Source: an uncultured Intestinimonas sp. (GTDB taxonomy: Bacteria; Bacillota; Clostridia; Oscillospirales; Oscillospiraceae). Taken from it: DNA of 41,646 bases. Of the stretch, positions 32,571-41,646 are shown in pieces. The stretch's first letter is position 1, and every line of letters starts with the position of its first letter. The translations under genes and the position numbers were made by a program. Below the pieces are notes generated by a model. It did no database searches and had not been told where the DNA came from. It saw nothing but the letters and a program-made list of their open reading frames with translations. The DNA lies in the NCBI RefSeq assembly GCF_944387725.1, contig NZ_CALXGA010000011.1:1-41646 (forward strand). The letters are read 5' to 3'.

Positions 32571-32647
32571 CCGGGTGTGGCGAAGTTTGGTATCGCGCTT
32601 GAATGGGGTTCAAGAGGCCGCTGGTTCGAATCCAGTCACTCGGACCA
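32571..32647 (+). tRNA. tRNA-Pro (anticodon GGG)
   Basis: 77 nt including encoded CCA. Acceptor CCGGGTG/CACTCGG, D arm GCG/CGC, anticodon arm CTTGA-ATGGGGT-TCAAG with anticodon GGG, T arm GCTGG-TTCGAAT-CCAGT, discriminator A. Its last 23 nt (32625-32647) are the integration site of the mobile element and are repeated at 41570-41592. Confidence 0.95.
32625..32647 (+). other. Left attachment site (attL core) in tRNA-Pro
   Basis: 23 bp identical to 41570-41592. It covers the T loop, the 3' acceptor strand and CCA of the tRNA; sequences diverge directly outside on both sides. Confidence 0.92.
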
Positions 32648-32650
32648 TGA

Positions 32651-32684
32651 AAGTCCTGTAACCGCAAGGGTTACAGGACTTTTT
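32651..32684 (+). terminator. Terminator supplied to the tRNA by the element
   Basis: 13-bp stem AAGTCCTGTAACC/GGTTACAGGACTT followed by TTTCT, starting 4 bp after the tRNA. It lies inside the element; the original chromosomal terminator now lies beyond attR at 41625. Confidence 0.85.
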
Positions 32685-32693
32685 CTATGTCCA

Positions 32694-32713
32694 GTACCCT
32701 TATTTTACCCTTA
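32694..32713. repeat. Left copy of end-associated repeat GTACCCTTATTTTACCCTTA
   Basis: A 20-bp sequence made of two ACCCTTA units lies 47 bp inside attL and covers the int stop codon. A 21-bp match (one extra T) lies at 41432-41452 near attR. Repeats near both ends in direct orientation fit integrase arm-type binding sites. Confidence 0.6.
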
Positions 32714-33931
32714 TTGGCCCACAACGCCCTCAATGTACTGCTCCATCCGCTGGGCGCTCTCCCGGCGCATCTGGTCCGTCACATGGCCGTACACATCAAG
32801 GGTAAAGGAAGCGGTGGCGTGACCCAAATTCCCCTGCACCGTCTTGATATCATCACCGCTCTTGATTGCGGCCACCGCATAGCTGTGACGCAAATCGTGA
32901 AAGCGGACGGTGGGAAGCCCCATATCAGTCACAACGCGCTTGAAGTTGTGGTAGACGGTATGGGTCATCAAATGACTGCCCAGCTCATTGGTGAACACTA
33001 GACCCGTGTCCTCCCATGCGGGCCCCGCATGTAGCCTCCACTCAGCCTGCTTGCCACGCTGCCGCTTGAGCCAGTGCATCACAATAGGGGCCGGGGCGAT
33101 TTTCCGCCATCTGCTGTTTTTGACGGAAATGAATTGATAACGGTATTTTTTGCCTCCGTTTTTGGCCCTGTCCTTGTCCTGGACCATGACCTTTTGGAAC
33201 TGCCGCCGGACCAACACGGTCCCCCGCTCAAAATCCACATCCTCCCATTTGAGCCCCAGCACCTCTCCCTGACGCATACCCGTAAACAAGGTGACCAGGA
33301 AAAGAAACTCATGGGGGTGCCCCTTGACCGTTTCGATGAACTGGTGAATGGCATCATCATCCAGCGGGTGCAGCTCCTTGCGCTCGACTCTGGGCAGGAC
33401 ACAGGCGTCCGACGGGTTGAACCGCAGGTAGGAAATAGCCACTGCCTGTTGGAGTGCCTTGTGGAGCACACCATGGACGATTTTCACAGACTTCGGCGAT
33501 AGGCCGCTCTTGGTCAAGCCGTTGTAAAAGTGCTGAATCATATGGGTACTCAACGCTTCCAGCTTGATAGGGCCAAGCTGGGGCCGGATATGGTTCTTGA
33601 TTTGACACTGATAGGATTCTACCGTTCTGGGCTTCACGCTGCCCAGATATTCCTCCATCCAAATATCCAGCCAATCTCCGACGGTGAGCATGGATGGGGC
33701 CTTGTAGGTCCCTTGGTCTACCTCCACGGCGATTTCCCGCATCTTCTGGGCGACTTCCTTCTGGGTCTTTCCGGTGATGGTCCGCTGGACCTGCTTGCCG
33801 GTAATGGGGTCAATGTCCACCGTGACCCGGCCCTCCCAATAGGTATAGGGCTTCCCGTTTCGCGTGACTTCTCTCTTACGGATGGAGCCGCTGCCATTGG
33901 CGGCGCGGCCCGTCTTATTCTTATGTGGCAT
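32711..33931 (-). CDS. int: Tyrosine recombinase (integrase)
   Basis: Site-specific integrase that would insert and excise the element at tRNA-Pro. The start at ATG 33931 has AAAGGAGG 10 nt upstream; the open frame goes on to 34021. Of 406 residues, about 25-75 form an AP2-like arm-binding part (YWEGRVTVDI), 80-175 the SAM-like core-binding domain, and 185-400 the catalytic domain with R220 (TGMRQGEVLGLKW), H345-x-x-R348 (FHDLRHSYA), H371 (LGHATASFTLDVYGH) and Y381. All catalytic residues are intact. It reads towards the tRNA, stop 63 bp from attL, last gene of the element's minus-strand operon. Confidence 0.95.
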   Translation of the reverse strand: MPHKNKTGRAANGSGSIRKREVTRNGKPYTYWEGRVTVDIDPITGKQVQRTITGKTQKEVAQKMREIAVEVDQGTYKAPSMLTVGDWLDIWMEEYLGSVKPRTVESYQCQIKNHIRPQLGPIKLEALSTHMIQHFYNGLTKSGLSPKSVKIVHGVLHKALQQAVAISYLRFNPSDACVLPRVERKELHPLDDDAIHQFIETVKGHPHEFLFLVTLFTGMRQGEVLGLKWEDVDFERGTVLVRRQFQKVMVQDKDRAKNGGKKYRYQFISVKNSRWRKIAPAPIVMHWLKRQRGKQAEWRLHAGPAWEDTGLVFTNELGSHLMTHTVYHNFKRVVTDMGLPTVRFHDLRHSYAVAAIKSGDDIKTVQGNLGHATASFTLDVYGHVTDQMRRESAQRMEQYIEGVVGQ

Positions 33932-33954
33932 GAATTTTTTACCTCCTTTGTCCG

Positions 33955-33969
33955 CCACATAAGCGCACA
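33955..33969. repeat. 15-bp sequence in the int leader, inverted copy near attR
   Basis: CCACATAAGCGCACA stands just upstream of the int ribosome site; its exact reverse complement TGTGCGCTTATGTGG is at 41409-41423, 147 bp inside attR. A possible integrase/excisionase binding site that links int expression to the state of the ends. Confidence 0.55.
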
Positions 33970-34028
33970 CCTGTATTGTAACGCTCATGCGGCGGACGGT
34001 CAATATCTCCTGCGATTGCATAGGGCCA

Positions 34029-34208
34029 TCAAGCGGCCAAATACTCCATAAGGGCCGCCTTTGGCACCCGGTACTGGTGTCCTACGCGGACACTGTGAAT
34101 GATACCAGCCCTCACGAGATTATAAGTGGTATCCCGGCCCAGGTTCAGGGCCTGAGCAACCTGGGGAACGGTGAGGACAAGAGGGATCTGCTCAAAATTC
34201 TTAATCAT
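34029..34208 (-). CDS. xis: Excisionase-type small DNA-binding protein
   Basis: 59-residue protein with a helix-turn-helix of the MerR-like/excisionase type: LTVPQVAQALNLGRDTTYNL followed by VRAGIIHSVRVGHQYRVPKA. Such proteins bend DNA at attachment sites and direct excision. ATG 34208 overlaps the stop of the FtsK-like gene by 8 bp. Too short to have been scored by length alone, but the motif and the place before int are convincing. It might also regulate the operon. Confidence 0.88.
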   Translation of the reverse strand: MIKNFEQIPLVLTVPQVAQALNLGRDTTYNLVRAGIIHSVRVGHQYRVPKAALMEYLAA

Positions 34209-35541
34209 AGTCGAGCCTCCATTCGTCGAAGTAGTACGCCTGCGTGACAACATAGTTGTCCGCGCCCTGGCTGACCACAAAGCACCCCTGCTTCCCGCGA
34301 GGGATGAGGTCAGCGGCGGCGGTAGAATCCAGGACGATTTTGCTGAGCACCTCGTTTGCCATCCCGCAGGCAGAGAAGGACACATTTGCTTTGATTTGGG
34401 GCGGCAAAGTATTTGAATCGGGTCTCTGGGTACTCAGGAGGAGATGGAGGCCCGAGGCCCGGCCACGCCTGGCAATCGAGGTGATGTACTGCTCCGCCTG
34501 CTCAATCATGGCCTTATGGGCTTTACCTGCCCCGGTTTTGTCAAACAGCTCCGCTGCCTCGTCGATCGCCAGGACGATGTGGTCGAAACGGTGGGCCTTG
34601 GGCCTTGCGTTGTACTCGTCTATATCCTGGTAGTGCCTTTCGGCCAGCACCTTTTCCCGGTGGGCCATCTCTTCGGAGAGCTCTTCCAGCACAGGGAGCA
34701 AATCCTCGATGCTGGTGATGACACGGCACTTTTTGGCCCAGCGGCTAAAGCCCACGCCTCCCTTGAGGTCTACGATGATGGGGACCGCCCCCCAGGTGAT
34801 GCACTGGTACAGGAGGCAGCGCAAGGCGACCGACTTGCCGCTTCCTGTCATGCCCGCAAGAACCCCATGCCCTTGACGCAGGTCCCAGGTGACCTGCCGA
34901 CCGGCACAGTCCACCCCCAGGGCCAGGACAAAAGGCTTCAAATCCATCATACAGTCTGGGGTCCACAGTATCTTGGTGGGCAGAGTGGAGGCAGGGGGCG
35001 CAGTGGTCAGTTTGATGCGCTGGTTATCCTGCCCATTCTCGACCTCCAGGATGGTCAGATTCAGGGCCGACTGGAGCTCGTCCACACGGTCACGCCAGTC
35101 GGAGGGCGGGAGACCACAGGTTTCGTATTCTTGGACCTTGATTCTGGGATTATCGGGGTCCTGCGTGATGGACAGCAGCTCCGGGACCTCGCCGTTCTCA
35201 TTGGCAAACCCGATACGCGCCAGACTTTCTTCCACGCGCTGGGCTGACAGCGGCCCTCCCCAGGCCCAAAAGAGGGCCAGAGTGAGGGCCGCTGCCAGCG
35301 TCACAGCAGCCAGGGCGGTCACGATGCAATAGAGCTGTCCCAGGGGACCGCCCATCTTTACGCCGTCAATCAGGCCGGTGCAGGCCCAGAACATGCACAG
35401 AAGGGTCAGCATCGCAACCAAAACAGGCCCATTCCCTCCGCCTGGCGCGACCTTACGGGCTCCGCGCTTCATACGCCTCACGATGCGGCGACGCTCTACC
35501 TTCTGGGGCAGCTTCCCGCCCGACTTTTTATCTGTAAGCAT
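34201..35541 (-). CDS. FtsK/SpoIIIE-like DNA translocase of the element
   Basis: 446 residues. Two N-terminal membrane helices (about 39-58 and 70-94) after a basic start, then a cytoplasmic domain with Walker A GMTGSGKS (230-237), Walker B IVLAIDE (322-328), the SIARRGRASGLHLLLSTQRP motif and FSACGMANEVLSKIVL. This fits the coupling/translocase proteins of Tn916-like elements (TcpA) and AICE TraSA proteins, which pump DNA during transfer. No gamma domain for chromosome-directed FtsK is seen. It lies between rep and xis. Direct dsDNA transfer or coupling of a Rep-bound strand are both possible. Confidence 0.9.
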   Translation of the reverse strand: MLTDKKSGGKLPQKVERRRIVRRMKRGARKVAPGGGNGPVLVAMLTLLCMFWACTGLIDGVKMGGPLGQLYCIVTALAAVTLAAALTLALFWAWGGPLSAQRVEESLARIGFANENGEVPELLSITQDPDNPRIKVQEYETCGLPPSDWRDRVDELQSALNLTILEVENGQDNQRIKLTTAPPASTLPTKILWTPDCMMDLKPFVLALGVDCAGRQVTWDLRQGHGVLAGMTGSGKSVALRCLLYQCITWGAVPIIVDLKGGVGFSRWAKKCRVITSIEDLLPVLEELSEEMAHREKVLAERHYQDIDEYNARPKAHRFDHIVLAIDEAAELFDKTGAGKAHKAMIEQAEQYITSIARRGRASGLHLLLSTQRPDSNTLPPQIKANVSFSACGMANEVLSKIVLDSTAAADLIPRGKQGCFVVSQGADNYVVTQAYYFDEWRLDYD

Positions 35542-35563
35542 GATAAACCATCCTTTCTAATAT

Positions 35564-36364
35564 CTAAATTTTGGGGAATTCCTCCGAGAGCACCCGGAGG
35601 CCGTTATAAATCTCACCTTCGTGTTGTATATGAGCTTTCAACTTTTCCTCGTCCCGAAACTCGTCGTAGTTCTCCGGGTCATGGGGGTAAGTGTTAGGAC
35701 CTTTGACCAGGTCCCGGCTGTGCAGATACCACTTTCCAAAAATCTTGCCGCCGTTGCCCTTGGTGATGTACTTGGCGACATAGTTGGCGGTGCGCTCATA
35801 GTTCTCGTCGAGTGGGATGCAAGTGGAGAAACCGTATTTCCAATCGAGCATGTTAAAGACTGGTCGGCCCTCCTTGTCGGTCCTGCGGTGGCCCAGCTTG
35901 TCCCTGGCCCGCTCAACGCGCACCTTGCCCAAATGGCAAAGGCCGTGCAGGTGGATGGCGGGCCGGTCCTCTCCGGCCTTCTTTTTGTGGTACTCCGGCA
36001 CAAGCAGATAAGAAAATTCCTTCCGATGGACCGCGTTGCCCAGGAAAGTCCGCAGCTTCTGATAGACGGCTTTCGGATCATAGCGGTCAAGGAGGTCGGG
36101 GTCGATGGTCCAGGTCAGAAAAGTGTCAAAAGTGTCCATATTACAGAGGGCGAGGTCTCTCACCTTGGACTTTGCCCGCTGCTGGCTCATTTTGATGGAC
36201 CGCTCCTGGTCCTTGGCGTGACCCGGTCGAGAGACCGCATAGGAGCGCGGCTTGGACGCGCCTGGAATCATGGGAAAAATCGCCCCCGTTGCCACCTGCT
36301 TTACCAGGGATTTAGGGTACTCCTTAATCCTACAATTCGTGTAAACAGTTGGTTGGTCTGGCAT
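35564..36364 (-). CDS. rep: HUH-type rolling-circle replication initiator (possible relaxase)
   Basis: 266 residues from ATG 36364 (GAGGAG 8 nt upstream). Three motifs of HUH endonucleases: motif 1 TFDTFLTWTIDP (about 78-89), motif 2 PAIHLHGLCHL with H138 and H140, and motif 3 NYVAKYITK with Y195 and Y199. It would nick one strand at an origin and start rolling-circle replication of the excised circle; in Tn916-type elements a related protein also acts as relaxase. No helicase domain. The two histidines and tyrosines are present, so it looks active. Followed by the FtsK-like gene after 22 bp. Confidence 0.88.
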   Translation of the reverse strand: MPDQPTVYTNCRIKEYPKSLVKQVATGAIFPMIPGASKPRSYAVSRPGHAKDQERSIKMSQQRAKSKVRDLALCNMDTFDTFLTWTIDPDLLDRYDPKAVYQKLRTFLGNAVHRKEFSYLLVPEYHKKKAGEDRPAIHLHGLCHLGKVRVERARDKLGHRRTDKEGRPVFNMLDWKYGFSTCIPLDENYERTANYVAKYITKGNGGKIFGKWYLHSRDLVKGPNTYPHDPENYDEFRDEEKLKAHIQHEGEIYNGLRVLSEEFPKI

Positions 36365-36430
36365 TTCGATTGCTCCTCTTTTTCCTTTCAGATTGCCTCG
36401 GGGTGAAATCAATCTGTTGATTCATCAAGT

Positions 36431-36479
36431 AAGAACGGCCTCCCACGCCCCCCTTACGGGGAGCGTGGGCCGTTCTTTT
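36431..36479. other. Long imperfect hairpin between the small gene and rep (candidate origin/nic site)
   Basis: AAGAACGG and CCGTTCTT enclose an inner stem CCCACGC/GCGTGGG and a loop around CCCCTTACGGGG. On the plus strand it ends in TTTTTT, which is terminator-like, but no plus-strand gene leads into it. On the minus strand it is an intercistronic hairpin just before rep, a common place for a double-strand origin. Confidence 0.5.
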
Positions 36480-36489
36480 TTGCGGGGTC

Positions 36490-36741
36490 TTACGACTGGA
36501 AGAGGATGGCGTCCGGCTTGCCGAAACGATTGTACTGGACGGTCACCTCAGAGCCGACCTTGAACTTACCAGCGTCCAGGCCGCACTTGGCGAGCTTGGC
36601 ATCGGTCATGTAGATGTGCTCGGCCACCATGCCCTGGGCCTCCGGCCCAGTGGCGGGGTAGGTCAGGTAGAGGTTGTAGCCGGTGATGGTTACGCCCTCG
36701 CGGGTAGTGAAATCGTTGCGCTTAAAACCAATCAGTTTCAT
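36490..36741 (-). CDS. Small protein, possibly an OB-fold ssDNA-binding protein
   Basis: 83 residues from ATG 36741 (AAAGGA 11 nt upstream); the open frame further upstream is promoter and leader. Not firmly recognised. The pattern MKLIGFKRNDFTTREGVTIT then a short strand-rich region, AEHIYMTDAKLAKCGLDAGK and FKVGSEVTVQYNRFGKPDAI suggests an all-beta protein, and position as first gene before an HUH Rep fits an ssDNA-binding role like filamentous-phage gene V or a small conserved ICE protein. Function is inference. Confidence 0.7.
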   Translation of the reverse strand: MKLIGFKRNDFTTREGVTITGYNLYLTYPATGPEAQGMVAEHIYMTDAKLAKCGLDAGKFKVGSEVTVQYNRFGKPDAILFQS

Positions 36742-36859
36742 TTGTGAATCGTTCCTTTCTTGTGCATATCGCACGGTCCAAATGGTGGATAGGTACACCC
36801 TGCCAGAGCGGGCAGGACGCGATGGGGACTTGACGCAGCCCCACCTCCGCGTTGCTGGA

Positions 36860-36888
36860 ATACAAAGTAAGCGATATTCAGTTGTCAA
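36860..36888 (-). promoter_or_regulatory. Promoter of the element's replication/transfer operon
   Basis: Minus-strand -35 TTGACA (36883-36888), 17-bp spacer, -10 TTGTAT (36860-36865). A leader of about 110 nt with a CCTGCCC...GGGCAGG-type hairpin precedes the small gene at 36741. It stands back to back with the plus-strand promoter at 36915. Confidence 0.65.
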
Positions 36889-36914
36889 GGTGCACGGGAA
36901 GCTGGGAAGCCCCA

Positions 36915-36943
36915 TTGACAGGCAATACGAGTAGTGATAGAAT
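36915..36943 (+). promoter_or_regulatory. Divergent consensus promoter with a 10-bp inverted repeat
   Basis: -35 TTGACA (36915-36920), 17-bp spacer, -10 TAGAAT (36938-36943). TGACAGGCAA (36916-36925) and its exact inverse TTGCCTGTCA (36958-36967) flank the start of transcription, so a repressor or Rep could bind both. The two promoters are only 26 bp apart, suggesting shared control. Confidence 0.7.
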
Positions 36944-36949
36944 AAATTG

Positions 36950-37198
36950 GGTTATTTTTGCCTGTCACTATACTTATATGCCTTGGCTCGACAGGTTATG
37001 CAGTTTTTCCCGTCAATTCGAGAAATTTTCTGGAAGCATTTCCTCCGGCTTCCGCTTATATCATATGTTTTCGCCACATTTTGATGAGCACACCCAAATA
37101 CCGGCCTATTTCCACCCCGAAAAGTCGAAATAGCACCCCCGCCCCGCCCTATCAAGGCCGAAAAAAATCCCTGGTTCCGAAGAGCCAGGGATTTTTTT
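36950..37198 (+). ncRNA. Candidate non-coding RNA 1 of the element (about 250 nt)
   Basis: Between the consensus promoter at 36915 and a strong terminator (stem CCCTGGTTC/GAGCCAGGG, loop CGAA, flanked by A7 and T7, 37161-37198) there is no plausible reading frame with a ribosome site. The unit is thus a free-standing transcript of about 250 nt. The region is AT-rich compared with the host. It runs away from rep, so it is not antisense to it; a regulatory or origin-linked role is possible. The terminator is symmetrical and may also act on the other strand. Confidence 0.55.
37161..37198 (+). terminator. Bidirectional-looking terminator
   Basis: AAAAAAATCCCTGGTTC, loop CGAA, GAGCCAGGGATTTTTTT. 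Ends the candidate RNA from 36950 and isolates the protease gene from the promoter at 36915. Confidence 0.85.
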
Positions 37199-37318
37199 GC
37201 GCGAGTGGCCCCTTTGGGGCCAGCCTTGACAGGTCGGGGCGGGGGCGCGTCGGTGGCGACACAAGCTCGCGAGCGAGCTGTGCTACCACATCTTTCTTAC
37301 TATGGGAGGGCCTACGAA

Positions 37319-37963
37319 ATGAAACAGACCACAAAAATGAGCCGTGCCGTCAATTTGCTGGAGCGCATATTTAATTCCCTGAACACCGACTTTTTCGGTG
37401 GGGAGCTGCCGGTCCCCATTATCACAGTCCAGAGCAAGCCGGGAACCTATGGACACTGTTCCGTGGCGAAGGTCTGGCAGAGGCCGGACGGCGGCGCGTA
37501 TGAACTGAACATTGCCGCCGAGGTCTTAAACTACCCAATCGAGGAGACTTTAGACACCATACTCCACGAGATGGTGCATCTCTTTTGCCGCCAGCACGGA
37601 ATCCAGGAAGTGAGCCGGGGCGGTACATATCACAATAAGCGGTTCAAGGAGGAGGCCGAGCGGCGGGGCCTGGAGTGCTACCGGACGGAGAAGTACAGCT
37701 GGAACACCCGGCCCAGCGACCGGCTTGTGGAATACGCCCTGGAAAAGGGGTGGAGTGAAATCAAGATCGGGCGGAGCACCCTGCCCCCGATGATTCGGAT
37801 CGGGGCCGGAGGCACCGCCCAGCCGGGAGCTGCCACCCCGGGCGGCAAGCGGCCCAGCTCCACCCGAAAGCTCATTTGTCCCCAGTGCGGGCAGAGCGTC
37901 CGGGCCACCAAGAAGGTCCATATCATCTGCGGGGATTGCATAGTCCCCATGGTGGAGGTGTAG
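37319..37963 (+). CDS. SprT-like zinc metalloprotease
   Basis: 214 residues from ATG 37319 (GGGAGGG 8 nt upstream). The SprT-like domain (about 12-125) has the HExxH motif in ILHEMVHLFCRQHG (83-87) and a third ligand in TYHNKRFKEEAERRG (H106). A C-terminal zinc ribbon, C187-x2-C190 and C204-x2-C207 (CPQCGQSVRATKKVHIICGD), follows a basic/Pro linker. Proteins of the SprT/Spartan type cleave DNA-protein crosslinks in eukaryotes; the bacterial homologues are little studied. In this element it might remove the covalently attached Rep, an idea from context only. No promoter was clear just upstream; a GC-rich inverted repeat AGCTCGCGAGCGAGCT precedes the ribosome site. Confidence 0.87.
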   Translation: MKQTTKMSRAVNLLERIFNSLNTDFFGGELPVPIITVQSKPGTYGHCSVAKVWQRPDGGAYELNIAAEVLNYPIEETLDTILHEMVHLFCRQHGIQEVSRGGTYHNKRFKEEAERRGLECYRTEKYSWNTRPSDRLVEYALEKGWSEIKIGRSTLPPMIRIGAGGTAQPGAATPGGKRPSSTRKLICPQCGQSVRATKKVHIICGDCIVPMVEV

Positions 37964-37967
37964 GGGC

Positions 37968-38026
37968 AAAAAAATGAGGTGCACTTTTCAAAACCTGGAA
38001 CAGGCAATTTTGAAAAGTGCACCTCA
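37968..38026 (-). terminator. Strong terminator of candidate RNA 2
   Basis: 19-bp perfect stem with 14-nt loop, followed by TTTTTTT on the minus strand. On the plus strand it may also stop transcripts of the protease gene. Confidence 0.85.
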
Positions 38027-38204
38027 GAAAAATTCTCAGCAAATTTTGACTTTTCTCTTTGAATGGCCCTTGCTTTTCCTATGCGGAACGGCTAAAATAG
38101 GGCTTGGAAACATATAAGCGGCAGTTCGTGGGGTGCTGGGAACACCCCACGAACCTGTGCGAGTCCTCGGCACTCGACACAACAGTCTTATAAGACTGCA
38201 CCAC
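37968..38204 (-). ncRNA. Candidate structured non-coding RNA 2 of the element (about 237 nt)
   Basis: A near-consensus promoter (TTGAAA-17-TATAAT, 38211-38239, minus) is followed by a transcript with three successive hairpins: CAGTCTTATAAGACTG; TGTG-CGAGT/ACTCG-CACA; and GTTCGTGGGGTG/CACCCCACGAAC (12 bp). It ends in a 19-bp perfect stem TGAGGTGCACTTTTCAAAA (38008-38026 with 37975-37993) plus T7 (37968-37974). Only a 25-codon frame without ribosome site is inside. It converges on the protease gene with 4 bp between. No known family was recognised. It could alternatively be the OFF-state product of an invertible promoter (see 38106-38325). Confidence 0.6.
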
Positions 38205-38325
38205 GGGGCTATTATACCTATTTCGCCGCGCTTTTTCAAGGCGGGAGAGGGAAATAGCTTTGTGCTACGCGTGATTTTATCAGGCGGTGTTGAGTACATA
38301 ACTCGGCACCGCCTTATATGTTTCC
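38106..38325. repeat. 220-bp segment bounded by 13-bp inverted repeats, with internal promoter
   Basis: GGAAACATATAAG (38106-38118) and CTTATATGTTTCC (38313-38325) are perfect inverted repeats. Each is joined on its inner side to a hairpin (GTTCGTGGGGTG... at 38124-38155 and AGGCGGTG...CACCGCCT at 38282-38314). The segment holds a strong promoter now directed away from the surface-protein gene at 38411. This geometry is that of an invertible promoter switch. The repeats are short for such a switch, so it is a hypothesis. Confidence 0.5.
38211..38239 (-). promoter_or_regulatory. Strong promoter inside the 220-bp segment
   Basis: Minus-strand -35 TTGAAA (38234-38239), 17-bp spacer, -10 TATAAT (38211-38216). 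One of the best sigma-A matches in the window. Transcription start near 38204. Confidence 0.75.
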
Positions 38326-38410
38326 GGCGGACACCCTGGGCGGGGCGTTGGCCCCGTCCGGGGGAGGTCGTCCGCTGGAAAACGATTTATTTCAAAAAGG
38401 GGAGGAAAAT

Positions 38411-41134
38411 ATGAAAAAGCGGATATTATCTTTTGCATTGTCCTTGACTCTGTGTTTAGGGCTGACTACCCCAGCATTCGCGGTAGACACTGGAACAAGT
38501 TTTCTTGAAAGTGGTAGTGACTCTATTGATAAGTTGAGCAAAGAAGAGATTGTCCAACTGCTAGAGGAAAATCCGCTGACCCTGCCTGACAATGTATTTG
38601 ACCAAGTTCCATCTTGCTCTGCTCCTTATTCAACAGGTAAAGTAAAGACTTCCGCCCTCCAGACAGCCACTGACCGGCTGAATGCTCTACGTCAAATTGC
38701 TGGTCTCCCGAATGTCCAACTAGACCTGACCCTTTGTGAGCAAGCCCAGTATGGAGCAGTCATCATCGCCGCTCAGGGGGCGTTGAATCACAACCCCAGT
38801 AAACCGTCAGGCATGGATAACGACTTCTACGAAAGGGCCTACGATGCCACATCTAGTAGTAACCTCTACGCAGGTCAGACCCTAACTACGGCAGTAGATG
38901 GGTTTATGGACGACAGCGACACCAGTAACATCGACCGCCTAGGACACCGCCGCTGGCAACTGAATCCTGGGCTCGGGAAAATCGGCTTCGGATATGCGGA
39001 AAGCGATACCCGCTATCGTACTTATGTGACAGAAAAAGTATTTGACAAGAGCGGAGATTGCGAGGATTATAAATTTATTTCCTGGCCTGCTTCTGGTAAT
39101 TTTCCCTCTAATCTGTTCGACGGGGATATTGCGTGGAGTGTGAGTCTGAACACCAGCGAGTACAGGACACCCCGGCAGTCTGACTTGACGGTTACCTTGG
39201 TCCGGGAGAGCGACGGAAAAACATGGACCTTCCGGGGAAGCGGCTACGGGGCCTCTGATAATGGAGCATACTTCCATATAGATACTGCCAACTATGGTAT
39301 TCCCAACTGCATTATTTTCCGCCCGGAGGGTATCACCTCCTATGAGGGCGTGTATACCGTTACCATCGACGGGCTGAAATCTGCCAACGGTAACCCCGTG
39401 GACTTTTCCTATCAGGTGGACTTCTTTAATCCTGATGACATCGGTGTTGAGCCGGAGAAGCCCCAAGAGACCACACAGCCTGAGGAGCCAGACAAACCCC
39501 AGAGACCCGGTCAGGAGGAATGGCCCATAGAAGGCGGAGACCTGACGGTAGTCGCTTCCGGCAATAGCACGGTAGCGAGGGACTATGTGGTCCTAGCCGA
39601 TGGACGGCTGGTCAACTGGAAAGATGGGACCTTGTTTGACACGGGTTATCAGGCGGTTTCTTTTGCAGAAAACCGATATATGGGTCTGAAAGCAGACGGC
39701 ACGCTTTGGGTTTGGGGCGAGTGGTATTCTCTATCTGACAATACGCTTGAAGAGCCAGTAGAAGTGCTGTCTAGTGTAAAGCAAATCAGCGGATACCTTG
39801 CCCTAAAAGAAGATGGCTCTGTTTGGTCTCCTGAACCGTTGAAGGGTATGGAGCAACGGCAGGACGGTATTTTCTATCAGGTGATAGCCAATGGTATCGC
39901 ACAGATTTCCAGCTATCGGGAGGATGCCGGTACTGCTGTTGCAGAGGACGGAACTCTTTACAGTTGGGGCAGTAACTGGGATGACGCATATCTTGGCAGA
40001 GAGACGGATTCAAATACCGGGAATCCTCCGGCTTCTATTTTGAACCAGGTCAGCTATGTCAATGGGCATTTTGCAATTCGGGAGGACGGTTCGCTGTGGT
40101 CCTGGGGTTCTAACACATTTGGGACCGTTGGGAACGGAAGCGGCAGTATAGCAGCTACTCCCGTAAAAGTGATGGACCGTGTGGTAGGAGCCTGGGCAGA
40201 CGAGGACAATTTGGCTGCGGTTCGCACAGCGGATGGAACACTATGGACCTGGGGCGTGAACAACGCAGGGGAACTGGGTTATGCCGACTTTGACAATCGT
40301 CAGACCTATGGCTTGGGATCGGTGGCCGGCCCTGGAACACCCTACCAGTCAACGCCCAAAGCGGTACAGATGGATAATGTAATCCAGGTGACTGCCGGCG
40401 GAATGGATATTACTCTGGCGTTGAAATCAGATGGTACCTTGTGGGCTTCCGGCAAAGGATATGGTCCCGCTTTTATCAAGGTTATGGATGGAGTTAAAAC
40501 CCCAGGCCAGGAACAGCAACCCACCGAGCAGGAGAAGCCTCAGCAGCCAGAAAAGCCCAATGAAACCACAGAGGCTGTGTTTACTGATGTGCCCGCCAAT
40601 CACTGGGCTCATGACTATGTAGAAAAAGCCGCGGCAGAGGGATGGGTCAATGGCGTTGGCAACAATCGCTTTGCCCCCGACAAGGAAATCAGTTACGCGG
40701 AGTTCTCGACTATGCTGATACGCGCCTATTATGCGGACGAATTGAATACCTACACTGGCTCCAGCGACCCTTGGTTTATGCCCTATTGCACTGTCGCGCA
40801 TAACCTTAGTCTCTACGATGGGACCAATATGGGACAGTCCGCCTTTGACGCAATCGCAGAAATTTCCTGCAACCGCTATGAGATGGCCCAGCTCCTATAC
40901 AATATTCTCAACGACCAGGACGCCATGCCCGAGTATGATGCTGCGAGCGTTCAGGCCAAAATCGGCGATTGGAGTAGCATCACCGGGAAATACAAGGACG
41001 CTGTGACTGGTGTCTTTGCTGCTGGCCTCATCGGCGGTGTGGACGCCAACGGCACCTTTAACGGTGACGGCGTCATGACCCGTGCCCAAGCCGCTACCGT
41101 CATGTGTCGGCTGGCTGAGTTGATTGGGGATTAA
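38411..41134 (+). CDS. Secreted CAP-domain / RCC1-like repeat / SLH surface protein (cargo)
   Basis: 907 residues from ATG 38411 (GGGGAGG site). Signal peptide about 1-24 (LSLTLCLGLTTPAFA). CAP (SCP/PR1) domain about 82-220 with ALNHNP and the LGHRRWQLNPGLGKIGFGYA signature. A beta-rich domain about 225-340 and a Pro/Glu linker follow. RCC1-like repeats about 395-695 show TLWVWGE, TLYSWGSN, SLWSWGSN and TLWTWGVNNAGELGYAD. A second Pro/Gln linker leads to three SLH modules about 722-905 (FTDVPANHWAHDYVEKAAAE; YKDAVTGVFAAGLIGG). It should sit on the cell surface, bound to secondary wall polymer by the SLH modules. Base composition is clearly less GC-rich than the chromosome. A weak promoter TTGAGT-18-TTATAT (38290-38319) may serve it. 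No catalytic role can be named. Confidence 0.88.
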   Translation: MKKRILSFALSLTLCLGLTTPAFAVDTGTSFLESGSDSIDKLSKEEIVQLLEENPLTLPDNVFDQVPSCSAPYSTGKVKTSALQTATDRLNALRQIAGLPNVQLDLTLCEQAQYGAVIIAAQGALNHNPSKPSGMDNDFYERAYDATSSSNLYAGQTLTTAVDGFMDDSDTSNIDRLGHRRWQLNPGLGKIGFGYAESDTRYRTYVTEKVFDKSGDCEDYKFISWPASGNFPSNLFDGDIAWSVSLNTSEYRTPRQSDLTVTLVRESDGKTWTFRGSGYGASDNGAYFHIDTANYGIPNCIIFRPEGITSYEGVYTVTIDGLKSANGNPVDFSYQVDFFNPDDIGVEPEKPQETTQPEEPDKPQRPGQEEWPIEGGDLTVVASGNSTVARDYVVLADGRLVNWKDGTLFDTGYQAVSFAENRYMGLKADGTLWVWGEWYSLSDNTLEEPVEVLSSVKQISGYLALKEDGSVWSPEPLKGMEQRQDGIFYQVIANGIAQISSYREDAGTAVAEDGTLYSWGSNWDDAYLGRETDSNTGNPPASILNQVSYVNGHFAIREDGSLWSWGSNTFGTVGNGSGSIAATPVKVMDRVVGAWADEDNLAAVRTADGTLWTWGVNNAGELGYADFDNRQTYGLGSVAGPGTPYQSTPKAVQMDNVIQVTAGGMDITLALKSDGTLWASGKGYGPAFIKVMDGVKTPGQEQQPTEQEKPQQPEKPNETTEAVFTDVPANHWAHDYVEKAAAEGWVNGVGNNRFAPDKEISYAEFSTMLIRAYYADELNTYTGSSDPWFMPYCTVAHNLSLYDGTNMGQSAFDAIAEISCNRYEMAQLLYNILNDQDAMPEYDAASVQAKIGDWSSITGKYKDAVTGVFAAGLIGGVDANGTFNGDGVMTRAQAATVMCRLAELIGD

Positions 41135-41166
41135 CGCACCCCGCCGAATAGAATATACAAGCACAA

Positions 41167-41202
41167 ATGGGGCTGACCGGAAATGGTCAGCCCCATTCTT
41201 TT
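41167..41202 (+). terminator. Terminator of the surface-protein gene
   Basis: 12-bp perfect stem ATGGGGCTGACC/GGTCAGCCCCAT, 6-nt loop, followed by TCTTTTCG. It starts 33 bp after the stop codon. Confidence 0.85.
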
Positions 41203-41369
41203 CGTACTTGTTCATCCTATTTTTGTTCATGAAAGTGTACTTCAAGAGGAATGAGGCCACCCTGTCTTTTTTACGGTGGAAAAGGCGGGAAGGGCATTTT
41301 TGCTGGATAGGACGGCCGCTTGTGCCACCCGCTCCGAGCCCCTTGGCACGACACCCAGATTGAAAGAAC

Positions 41370-41405
41370 GAGGGGCGGCCCCGCGCTATGCGGTGGCCGC
41401 CCCTC
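41370..41405. other. GC-rich hairpin near the right end
   Basis: 11-bp stem GAGGGGCGGCC/GGCCGCCCCTC around CCGCGCTATGCGGT, followed by TCTTGTG. In 41203-41569 I see no gene; the stretch holds this hairpin, the two end-associated repeats and the attR core. Confidence 0.6.
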
Positions 41406-41408
41406 TCT

Positions 41409-41423
41409 TGTGCGCTTATGTGG
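41409..41423. repeat. Right copy of the 15-bp inverted repeat
   Basis: TGTGCGCTTATGTGG, exact reverse complement of 33955-33969 in the int leader. Confidence 0.55.
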
Positions 41424-41431
41424 TCGAACTT

Positions 41432-41452
41432 GTACCCTTATTTTTACCCTTA
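41432..41452. repeat. Right copy of end-associated repeat
   Basis: GTACCCTTA-TTTTT-ACCCTTA, matching 32694-32713 with one extra T. Candidate integrase arm-type site. Confidence 0.6.
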
Positions 41453-41569
41453 AACGGTCAGTTTTGGTCAGGAAAAGGCAGTATCATCCAGGATTGTCCA
41501 AGCCCGCAATCCCTTGGAAACAGGACATTCCGGGAAAAGCCAGGGCTGGACAGACTGCTCTTTTCGCAA

Positions 41570-41592
41570 TTCGAATCCAGTCACTCGGACCA
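41570..41592 (+). other. Right attachment site (attR core)
   Basis: Perfect 23-bp copy of the tRNA-Pro 3' end, CCA included. It is followed by ACTAAGG, which should be the original sequence downstream of the tRNA before integration. Confidence 0.92.
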
Positions 41593-41624
41593 ACTAAGGT
41601 TGCTGAAAAAGATGCAACCCCTGA

Positions 41625-41646
41625 AACCCTTGCTGCGGCAAGGGTT
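41625..41646 (+). terminator. Displaced original terminator of tRNA-Pro (cut by window edge)
   Basis: 9-bp stem AACCCTTGC/GCAAGGGTT with a 4-nt loop, reaching the last base. A T-run should follow outside the window. In an unoccupied chromosome it would lie about 33 bp after the tRNA. Confidence 0.6.

Follow-up and report, generated by a model that had tools for sequence, protein, structure and literature searches.

A compact element in tRNA-Pro(ggg) of an Intestinimonas species, probably an integrative and mobilizable element with a G2P-like Rep and a TcpA-type coupling protein

The stretch analysed here (the window) comprises the 41,646 nucleotides of contig NZ_CALXGA010000011.1 (C11), part of the 2.18 Mb draft genome of an uncultured Intestinimonas species (GCF_944387725.1; Oscillospiraceae), and carries an element of about 9 kb inserted into a tRNA-Pro(ggg) gene. 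This element is probably an integrative and mobilizable element (IME) of the class described in streptococci in 2017, in which a 'relaxase' related to rolling-circle initiators is combined with the coupling protein TcpA (PMC5357655). Here rep lies upstream of tcpA, transfer would proceed through the mating channel of a helper, and a sister copy at tRNA-Val would have originated by exchange of a segment.

Element boundaries and empty site

Two identical 23-bp direct repeats bound about 8.9 kb within tRNA-Pro(ggg), the left one being the 3′ end of the tRNA gene (Rfam tRNA, 59.4 bits). Two places in the own genome matched a 301-base query across the left end (E ≤ 0.001), namely the two repeat positions. 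The G+C content is 54.7% for the element and 63.6% for the flank. The features of the ends are:

32571..32647, plus strand: tRNA-Pro(ggg), target of insertion, 3′ end restored by the element (Rfam tRNA)
32625..32647, plus strand: left 23-bp attachment repeat, tRNA side (repeat comparison, G287 empty site)
32648..32688, plus strand: hairpin and T-run directly after the tRNA, arms 32650–32663/32669–32682 (putative terminator)
41570..41592, plus strand: right 23-bp attachment repeat (repeat comparison, G287 empty site)

The empty site was found in a congener, G287, in which tRNA-Pro is joined directly to the right flank of the window (98.7% identity over 77 bp, 41570–41646). The local score of this flank was 91, compared with a maximum of 22 among 200 shuffles (right flank against the flank of one other congener). 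Because the tRNA-Pro of G287 runs straight into the right flank, the 23-bp repeats are taken to act as attachment sites. The original prediction, made from the letters alone, had described a compact mobile element in tRNA-Pro with 23-bp repeats at both ends and had named the lack of any strain with an empty site as an argument against it; G287 provides such a site. To the left of tRNA-Pro, G287 is 86.6–90.7% identical to the window, and longer aligned stretches further left show 82–88%. Among the tRNA-Pro flanks of congeners besides G287, that of G206 alone exceeded the shuffles (28 versus 22).

The hairpin directly after the tRNA is a probable element-supplied terminator; by eye, a different hairpin occupies the equivalent place beside tRNA-Val in G287 and in a third species, G300. 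The contig stops 54 bp beyond the right repeat, inside a hairpin (by eye) which is probably the original terminator of the tRNA. Since second copies (46–48 bp) of the tRNA-Pro(ggg) 3′ end exist in the congeners G301 (C1) and G250 (C155) and an interrupted integrase adjoins tRNA-Pro(ggg) in G150 (C20), this tRNA looks like an insertion hotspot with other insertions or remnants in these genomes.

Gene content

Profile scans of the seven proteins of the element identified an integrase (PF00589), an excisionase (TIGR01764), an FtsK/SpoIIIE protein (PF01580), a G2P-like Rep (PF23343), an SprT-like protein (PF10263) and a CAP, RCC1 and SLH protein, all as originally predicted. The remaining protein, of 83 aa, which is encoded next to Rep and had gone unnamed in that prediction, matched no family. 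In agreement with the earlier statement that type IV secretion genes are lacking, the families reported for these seven proteins included no mating-pore family, Zot/pI ATPase or coat-protein family. Coupling-type and VirB4-type models matched the FtsK-like ATPase weakly, under their cut-offs. Start codons were re-read from the sequence and placed at about 33931 (integrase), 36364 (Rep) and 34208 (Xis); that of the integrase is preceded by a ribosome-binding site, and G287 has a stop codon upstream of it.

32711..33931, minus strand: tyrosine integrase, 406 aa; arm part 33683–33931, core-binding and catalytic part 32711–33682 (PF00589, sequence comparison)
34029..34208, minus strand: excisionase (TIGR01764, HTH_17; family match, start by eye)
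34201..35541, minus strand: TcpA-type coupling protein (FtsK/SpoIIIE family), 446 aa; N-terminal part hydrophobic (by eye), followed by the ATPase (profile matches)
35564..36364, minus strand: Rep, G2P-like endonuclease with HUH motif, 266 aa; H138-x-H140, Y195-xx-K-Y199 (PF23343, start by eye)
36490..36741, minus strand: 83-aa protein upstream of rep, OB-like fold predicted (structure prediction)
37133..37248, no strand: non-coding inverted repeats between the rep operon and SprT; 26-bp arms (88%), inner 17-bp arms (repeat search)
37319..37963, plus strand: SprT-like metalloprotease (PF10263); HEMVH and C-terminal CxxC pairs by eye
38411..41134, plus strand: CAP, RCC1-like and SLH surface protein, cargo (family match, start by eye)

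A perfect 19-bp inverted repeat with a 14-nt loop (37975–38026) lies just after SprT and is present in G287 too.

The coupling protein is of the TcpA type

Among solved chains, the FtsK-like protein is closest to entries named 'DNA translocase coupling protein' (E 6e-51; 6o1w and others), with FtsK next (4e-14). These entries we take to be TcpA of pCW3. No TraB is among the 10 solved-chain sequences listed, and the plasmid TraB model gave 34 bits at a cut-off of 800. The best plasmid match (33.6% over 78%) is an FtsK/SpoIIIE protein in the TcpA position of Enterocloster bolteae pCbo51, where it adjoins genes annotated as conjugal transfer protein, TcpD family, TcpE family and ATP-binding protein. 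By sequence comparison, the FtsK-like protein is a TcpA-type coupling protein, far nearer TcpA than FtsK.

Relatives of this protein were surveyed in 300 genomes of the same family at E ≤ 1e-30, and all 23 places found (two with an in-frame stop) were examined. An initiator gene lies directly upstream on the same strand in 20 of them, the initiators being G2P-like in three, Viral_Rep/CRESS-like in 15 (two weak, 44 and 49 bits) and Rep_trans in two; at the other three places, one of which ends at a contig edge, no initiator was found. Pfam analysis of five of these initiators gave PF02407 in three and PF02486 in two. One coupling-protein family thus stands beside three initiator families, with the order rep-tcpA every time. 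The places with a CRESS-like Rep directly upstream of the TcpA-type gene (L133, L142, L135, L144, L146 and others) often have int as well; three of these Reps were scanned, and PF02407 was present in all three and the helicase PF00910 above cut-off in one.

Rep and a candidate origin

Rep matches PF23343 (E 5.9e-11), and the HxH, YxxKY and TxT positions are invariant across 19 Reps, so that it is regarded as a putative relaxase related to rolling-circle initiators. Scans of sequence collections with the single Rep protein yielded no confirmed relative, but an alignment query did find relatives. Between the gene of the 83-aa protein and rep, a strong hairpin is followed by the motif TACTTGAT...CAACA.AT...TCA:

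36432..36477, minus strand: hairpin predicted to be strong, immediately 5′ of the nick motif (folding prediction)
36404..36431, minus strand: putative nick site/double-strand origin (TACTTGATG...CAACAGATTG...TCA)

The motif was counted in 45 rep loci, consisting of the window, 28 of the 29 loci of one set of Rep relatives (L206 omitted), eight of a second set and eight others, some of them near-duplicates (L214/L215, L223/L224). A relaxed form, shaped on the very sequences in which it was counted, is present upstream of rep in 21 of the 45 loci and matches those loci nowhere else (1.19 Mb, counted on both strands), compared with three matches in 2.24 Mb of 154 other loci; the count becomes 22 with L211, which fits the strict form alone. 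The strict form occurs in 11 of the 45 rep loci and in none of 900 shuffles. The motif is absent from the remaining rep loci, mostly those of more distant Reps, including two with a coupling-protein gene (L047, L216). We consider the hairpin and TACTTGAT motif upstream of rep a likely nick site, which may double as the origin of transfer (oriT). We assume a resemblance of this origin to that of phiX174, and of the Rep motif to YVAKY of phiX174. For Rep_1-like proteins, CTTGATA is given as the conserved nick site (PMC10378824).

The 83-aa protein was modelled with a mean pLDDT of 90 as a beta-beta-beta-alpha-beta-beta structure. Its top fold matches are mostly OB folds of SSB, RPA and PriB, individually weak (best E 0.081), and among solved chains its profile had no credible sequence match, the best (E 0.078) being to an unrelated protein. 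The model suggests a probable OB-fold protein; OB-fold partners of relaxases are known in ICEBs1 and ICESt3 (PMC12614216). On a viral contig (L233, IMG/VR), an OB-like gene and Rep occur together with a Zot-family ATPase and the same origin motif; the element therefore has its replicon type in common with filamentous-phage-like DNA.

The same element body at tRNA-Val in a sister species

G287, a fragmented draft (about 210 contigs, 79% complete), carries the body of the element on two contigs, C110 being 96.2% identical to window positions 33658–35058 and C102 99.4% identical to 37801–41581. Because the element body is 96–99% alike as against 82–91% for the aligned host flanks, the element probably moved between the two species after their split. 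In G287, the left end joins tRNA-Val(gac) and the right end bears the matching 23 bp of tRNA-Val.

Within int, the DNA identity between the window and G287 climbs from about 50–60% to at least 95% near window positions 33650–33830; at the protein level, identity is 95.2% in the arm part (83 aa) and 51.8% in the remainder. In this non-arm part, five other relatives score higher with the window than G287 does, and the nearest complete relative of the G287 core part is another tRNA-Val(gac) integrase (58.5%). At tRNA-Val(gac), the third species, G300, retains an integrase remnant, the left end and C-terminal part of which are 89.5% identical to G287 over 455 bp and 71.4% to the window over 231 bp, and its last 85 residues are all identical to G287 (85/85), with 57/83 to the window; the arm part of the remnant gives 58/75 to G287 and 61/76 to the window. 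The near-identical arm, the divergent remainder and the C-terminus shared with the G300 remnant point to the G287 integrase being a natural chimera with two different closest relatives.

Candidate binding sites for the arm domain were located at both ends:

32696..32713, plus strand: left arm-type site pair ACCCTTA-N4-ACCCTTA (predicted)
41434..41452, plus strand: right arm-type site pair ACCCTTA-N5-ACCCTTA (predicted from sequence)

ACCCTTA occurs five times in the window, four copies making two direct pairs, one per end, and G287 keeps both pairs. Five copies are unremarkable on their own (10 of 100 shuffles reach five), and it is the pairing and placement that constitute the evidence; the 19-base pair pattern was found in none of 100 shuffles, although it is fitted by the right end alone, the left spacing being one base shorter.

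In the circular form, the exchanged parts adjoin one another (attachment core, left end, core-binding and catalytic domains) and could have moved in one step. We lean towards the view that such elements switch their tRNA target by swapping a single contiguous cassette of the circle, made up of the attachment core, the tRNA-terminator hairpin, the left end and the core-binding and catalytic part of the integrase; the crossover would fall at the boundary of the arm domain, and the arm sites, the control by Xis and the body would be retained. The parents of one such event would then be represented by the window (tRNA-Pro) and by the G300 remnant (donor type), and its recombinant by G287 (tRNA-Val). 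Replacement of whole integration modules is known (PMC5357655, PMC8138268); no report of natural arm/core integrase chimeras was found in the open-access literature searched. No own-genome counterpart of the G287 tRNA-Val(gac) site was found in the draft, a 77% tRNA match being all that was returned. An empty tRNA-Val site was not found either: the G287 right flank, compared with the tRNA-Val flanks of seven congeners having the exact 23 bp, gave scores of 16–24 (shuffled maximum 25).

Fusion of two strains within int during metagenome assembly would also produce a tRNA-Val copy with a chimeric integrase, and the fragmentation of G287, with left and right ends on separate contigs, is compatible with such an artefact. 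We nevertheless judge it improbable. The right end, on its own contig, independently joins the tRNA-Val core to a window-like right arm, and therefore two matching assembly errors would be required; moreover, the identity shifts gradually (80, 90 and 95% across successive 60-column blocks).

SprT as a companion of rolling-circle initiators

The SprT-like gene had been viewed as part of an unusual cargo. The first 24 of 37 rows of an SprT survey were examined. Among loci of at least 53% identity, 12 of 16 (window included) have, on the same stretch and within about 5 kb, an initiator or coupling-protein gene, which in two cases is indicated by weak coupling-protein matches alone (46–47 bits); three of the four others lie within 1.6 kb of a contig end. 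At 50% identity or less, none of eight loci has such a gene. SprT is divergent from the rep operon in 11 of the 12 loci, the initiators of which belong to three families. The inovirus bajarodino virus 76 (PQ006119.1) likewise carries a related Rep and an SprT-like gene, the latter opposite to most genes. Given this recurrence, SprT as chance cargo was rejected.

A dedicated helper function would be in keeping with these counts and with the inovirus: SprT might digest Rep left covalently on nicked DNA, or cleave a regulator to switch the element on. We regard this as rather doubtful, since SprT relatives occur in large phages too and no SprT is present on the stretch read (3.8 to 20 kb) in 19 of the 23 coupling-protein places; the digestion of Rep–DNA adducts is put forward as a hypothesis. 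SprT has no solved relative at E ≤ 1, and no report connecting SprT with rolling-circle replication was found in the open-access literature searched.

A small-RNA candidate beside the surface-protein gene

Upstream of the surface-protein gene, and divergent from it, lies a strongly covarying candidate for a new small RNA:

38108..38210, minus strand: small-RNA candidate with three hairpins; -10 at 38211–38216, -35 at 38234–38239; ends approximate (covariation model)

R1, a covariation model based on two sequences, has matches in 31 of 120 genomes of the family, with up to eight copies each. Neither the window stretch (E up to 0.1) nor four relatives (gathering scores) matched Rfam. Alignment of 27 loci to the model gives two-sided changes at 21 of 24 pairs and 92.9% of cells paired (71.6% when shuffled), the alignment being fitted to the structure. 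Because A.C mismatches outnumber G.U (38 to 3) and promoter-like sequence lies on the opposite strand, the RNA is probably encoded on the minus strand, and a sense-strand leader before the cargo gene was dropped. On that other strand, by raw count, a loose -10 is found in 26 of 27 loci (21 as TATAAT) and a -35 with at least four of six letters in 25 of 27. Of the genes neighbouring the 27 loci, 20 begin with a signal-peptide-like sequence (by eye).

Related elements and a possible helper

The order of the window, i.e. OB-like gene, Rep, coupling protein, Xis and Int with a divergent SprT, recurs in another Oscillospiraceae draft (L207), where the surface-protein gene is not on the stretch read. 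A 6.7-kb relative in G230 (OB-like gene, Rep, coupling protein, Xis and Int) is placed between 45-bp repeats at tRNA-Arg. Several smaller elements with Rep relatives, about 3 to 3.6 kb long, are bounded by tRNA repeats of 48 bp (G089), 69 bp (G273), 84/48 bp (G187), 55 bp (L226) and 123 bp (L228). Five such loci (L031, L032, L048, L226, L228) contain little besides rep and int within their tRNA repeats (48–123 bp) and represent minimal integrating replicons.

The own genome contains, on contig C74 (L261), a VirB4-like gene with neighbours of conjugation type (judged by eye). The frame of this VirB4-like ATPase shows an apparent intein at the ATP-binding loop, and the fragment also encodes membrane proteins and an NlpC/P60-like protein (names by eye).

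Discussion

An integrase with direct-repeat boundaries and an empty site, a putative relaxase related to initiators and an FtsK-related TcpA, with no mating-pore family reported, are the properties of an IME; an integrative and conjugative element (ICE) would hold mating-pore genes within its own limits. According to our model, Int and Xis would excise the element as a circle, as suggested by the repeats, arm-type pairs and empty site. Rep would nick one strand at the hairpin/TACTTGAT origin and start rolling-circle replication, in which the small OB-like protein may assist. The TcpA-type coupling protein would then hand the Rep-bound strand to a mating channel supplied by a resident conjugative element; in the new host, the circle would re-form and integrate at tRNA-Pro. 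In the sister species, an exchange with a tRNA-Val element appears to have replaced the attachment core, left end and core-binding and catalytic integrase, with retention of the arm domain and arm sites; the mosaic is seen in the assembly, the route is conjectural. Of the transfer options originally proposed, Rep acting as relaxase and hitching on another system would be the best mechanism, and transfer by the FtsK-like protein alone is abandoned since that protein is of the TcpA type.

Streptococcal IMEs share with the present element the tyrosine integrase, site-specific insertion with tRNA genes among the targets, the absence of a mating pore and the pairing of an initiator-related relaxase with an FtsK-related TcpA; there too, integration modules and tcpA genes are replaced, and several initiator families occur with one coupling-protein type (PMC5357655, PMC5704250). 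They differ in that the host here belongs to the Oscillospiraceae, Rep lies upstream of the coupling-protein gene in all 20 places with an initiator, and SprT, surface-protein cargo, an OB-like gene preceding rep and an origin motif that also occurs in inovirus-like contigs are present. The streptococcal IMEs compared include PHA00330 class 3, whereas Rep is typed here by PF23343 alone. The ICEBs1/Tn916/ICESt3 superfamily (NicK/MobT, ConQ/TcpA, HelP/OrfL/OrfM) likewise combines an initiator-related relaxase, a TcpA-class coupling protein and a small OB-fold protein; the ICEBs1 circle replicates autonomously (PMC5714925, PMC12614216), and plasmid Reps serve as relaxases via the coupling protein ConQ (PMC5714925). 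In contrast, the element described here has no reported mating-pore genes, its Rep belongs to another family and its OB-like protein shares the fold class at most.

Two other identities were weighed and rejected. Actinomycete integrative and conjugative elements (AICEs) of the pSAM2 type have the outline int-xis-rep-translocase and insert into tRNA genes. The original prediction had seen a likeness to them, and on this account the FtsK-like protein alone would move double-stranded DNA between cells, as TraB does in Streptomyces, Rep just replicating the circle. The shared outline and the weak TraB match would speak for it, but with its closest relatives among TcpA-type proteins, its best plasmid match amid TcpD and TcpE family genes and a host that is not an actinomycete, we give this reading very little credence, and the likeness was given up. 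An integrated filamentous phage or satellite, in which Rep and the OB-like protein are inovirus genes and the DNA exits by a phage-like route, is almost as hard to credit. Rep relatives were found in 24 phage records, bajarodino and Dulem viruses only, and the one opened is filed as Inoviridae; L233 shares the OB-like gene, Rep and origin motif, and bajarodino virus 76 both Rep and SprT. These inoviruses, however, have a Zot-type ATPase, the present element TcpA, Int and Xis, and neither Zot nor coat family was reported for the seven genes, the ATPase of which is TcpA-like. Its replicon and inoviruses may have a common ancestor; this would not make the element a phage.

Several observations weigh against the IME interpretation or its parts. 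A fold search with Rep among solved structures gave no match at E < 0.001, HUH proteins appearing among the noise alone. Phage FtsK-like proteins match the coupling protein too (phrog_1358, E 4e-46), its best NCBIfam score is to EccCa, below cut-off, and the order rep-to-tcpA is the reverse of that in streptococcal IMEs, where tcpA lies upstream of the relaxase gene (PMC5357655). Window positions 35059–37800, including rep, were not found in the G287 assembly, the two contigs of which are connected solely by sequence identity and the common tRNA-Val repeat; the short right flank (54 bp) is nearly identical in both species, making flank identity uneven. In the own genome, the VirB4-like matches score under the curated cut-off, and no such match was found in G287 (79% complete), G234 or G257. 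Finally, we infer excision, nicking, transfer, the use of a helper and the role of SprT from the sequence.

The findings would extend the class of IMEs combining TcpA with rolling-circle initiators to gut Oscillospiraceae, with reversed gene order, and provide the Rep type of PF23343 with a candidate nick site. The sister copy would be a natural case of integrase retargeting by domain exchange for which both parental types are available. The recurrence of SprT beside three families of rolling-circle initiators suggests a link between such proteases and covalent Rep–DNA intermediates.

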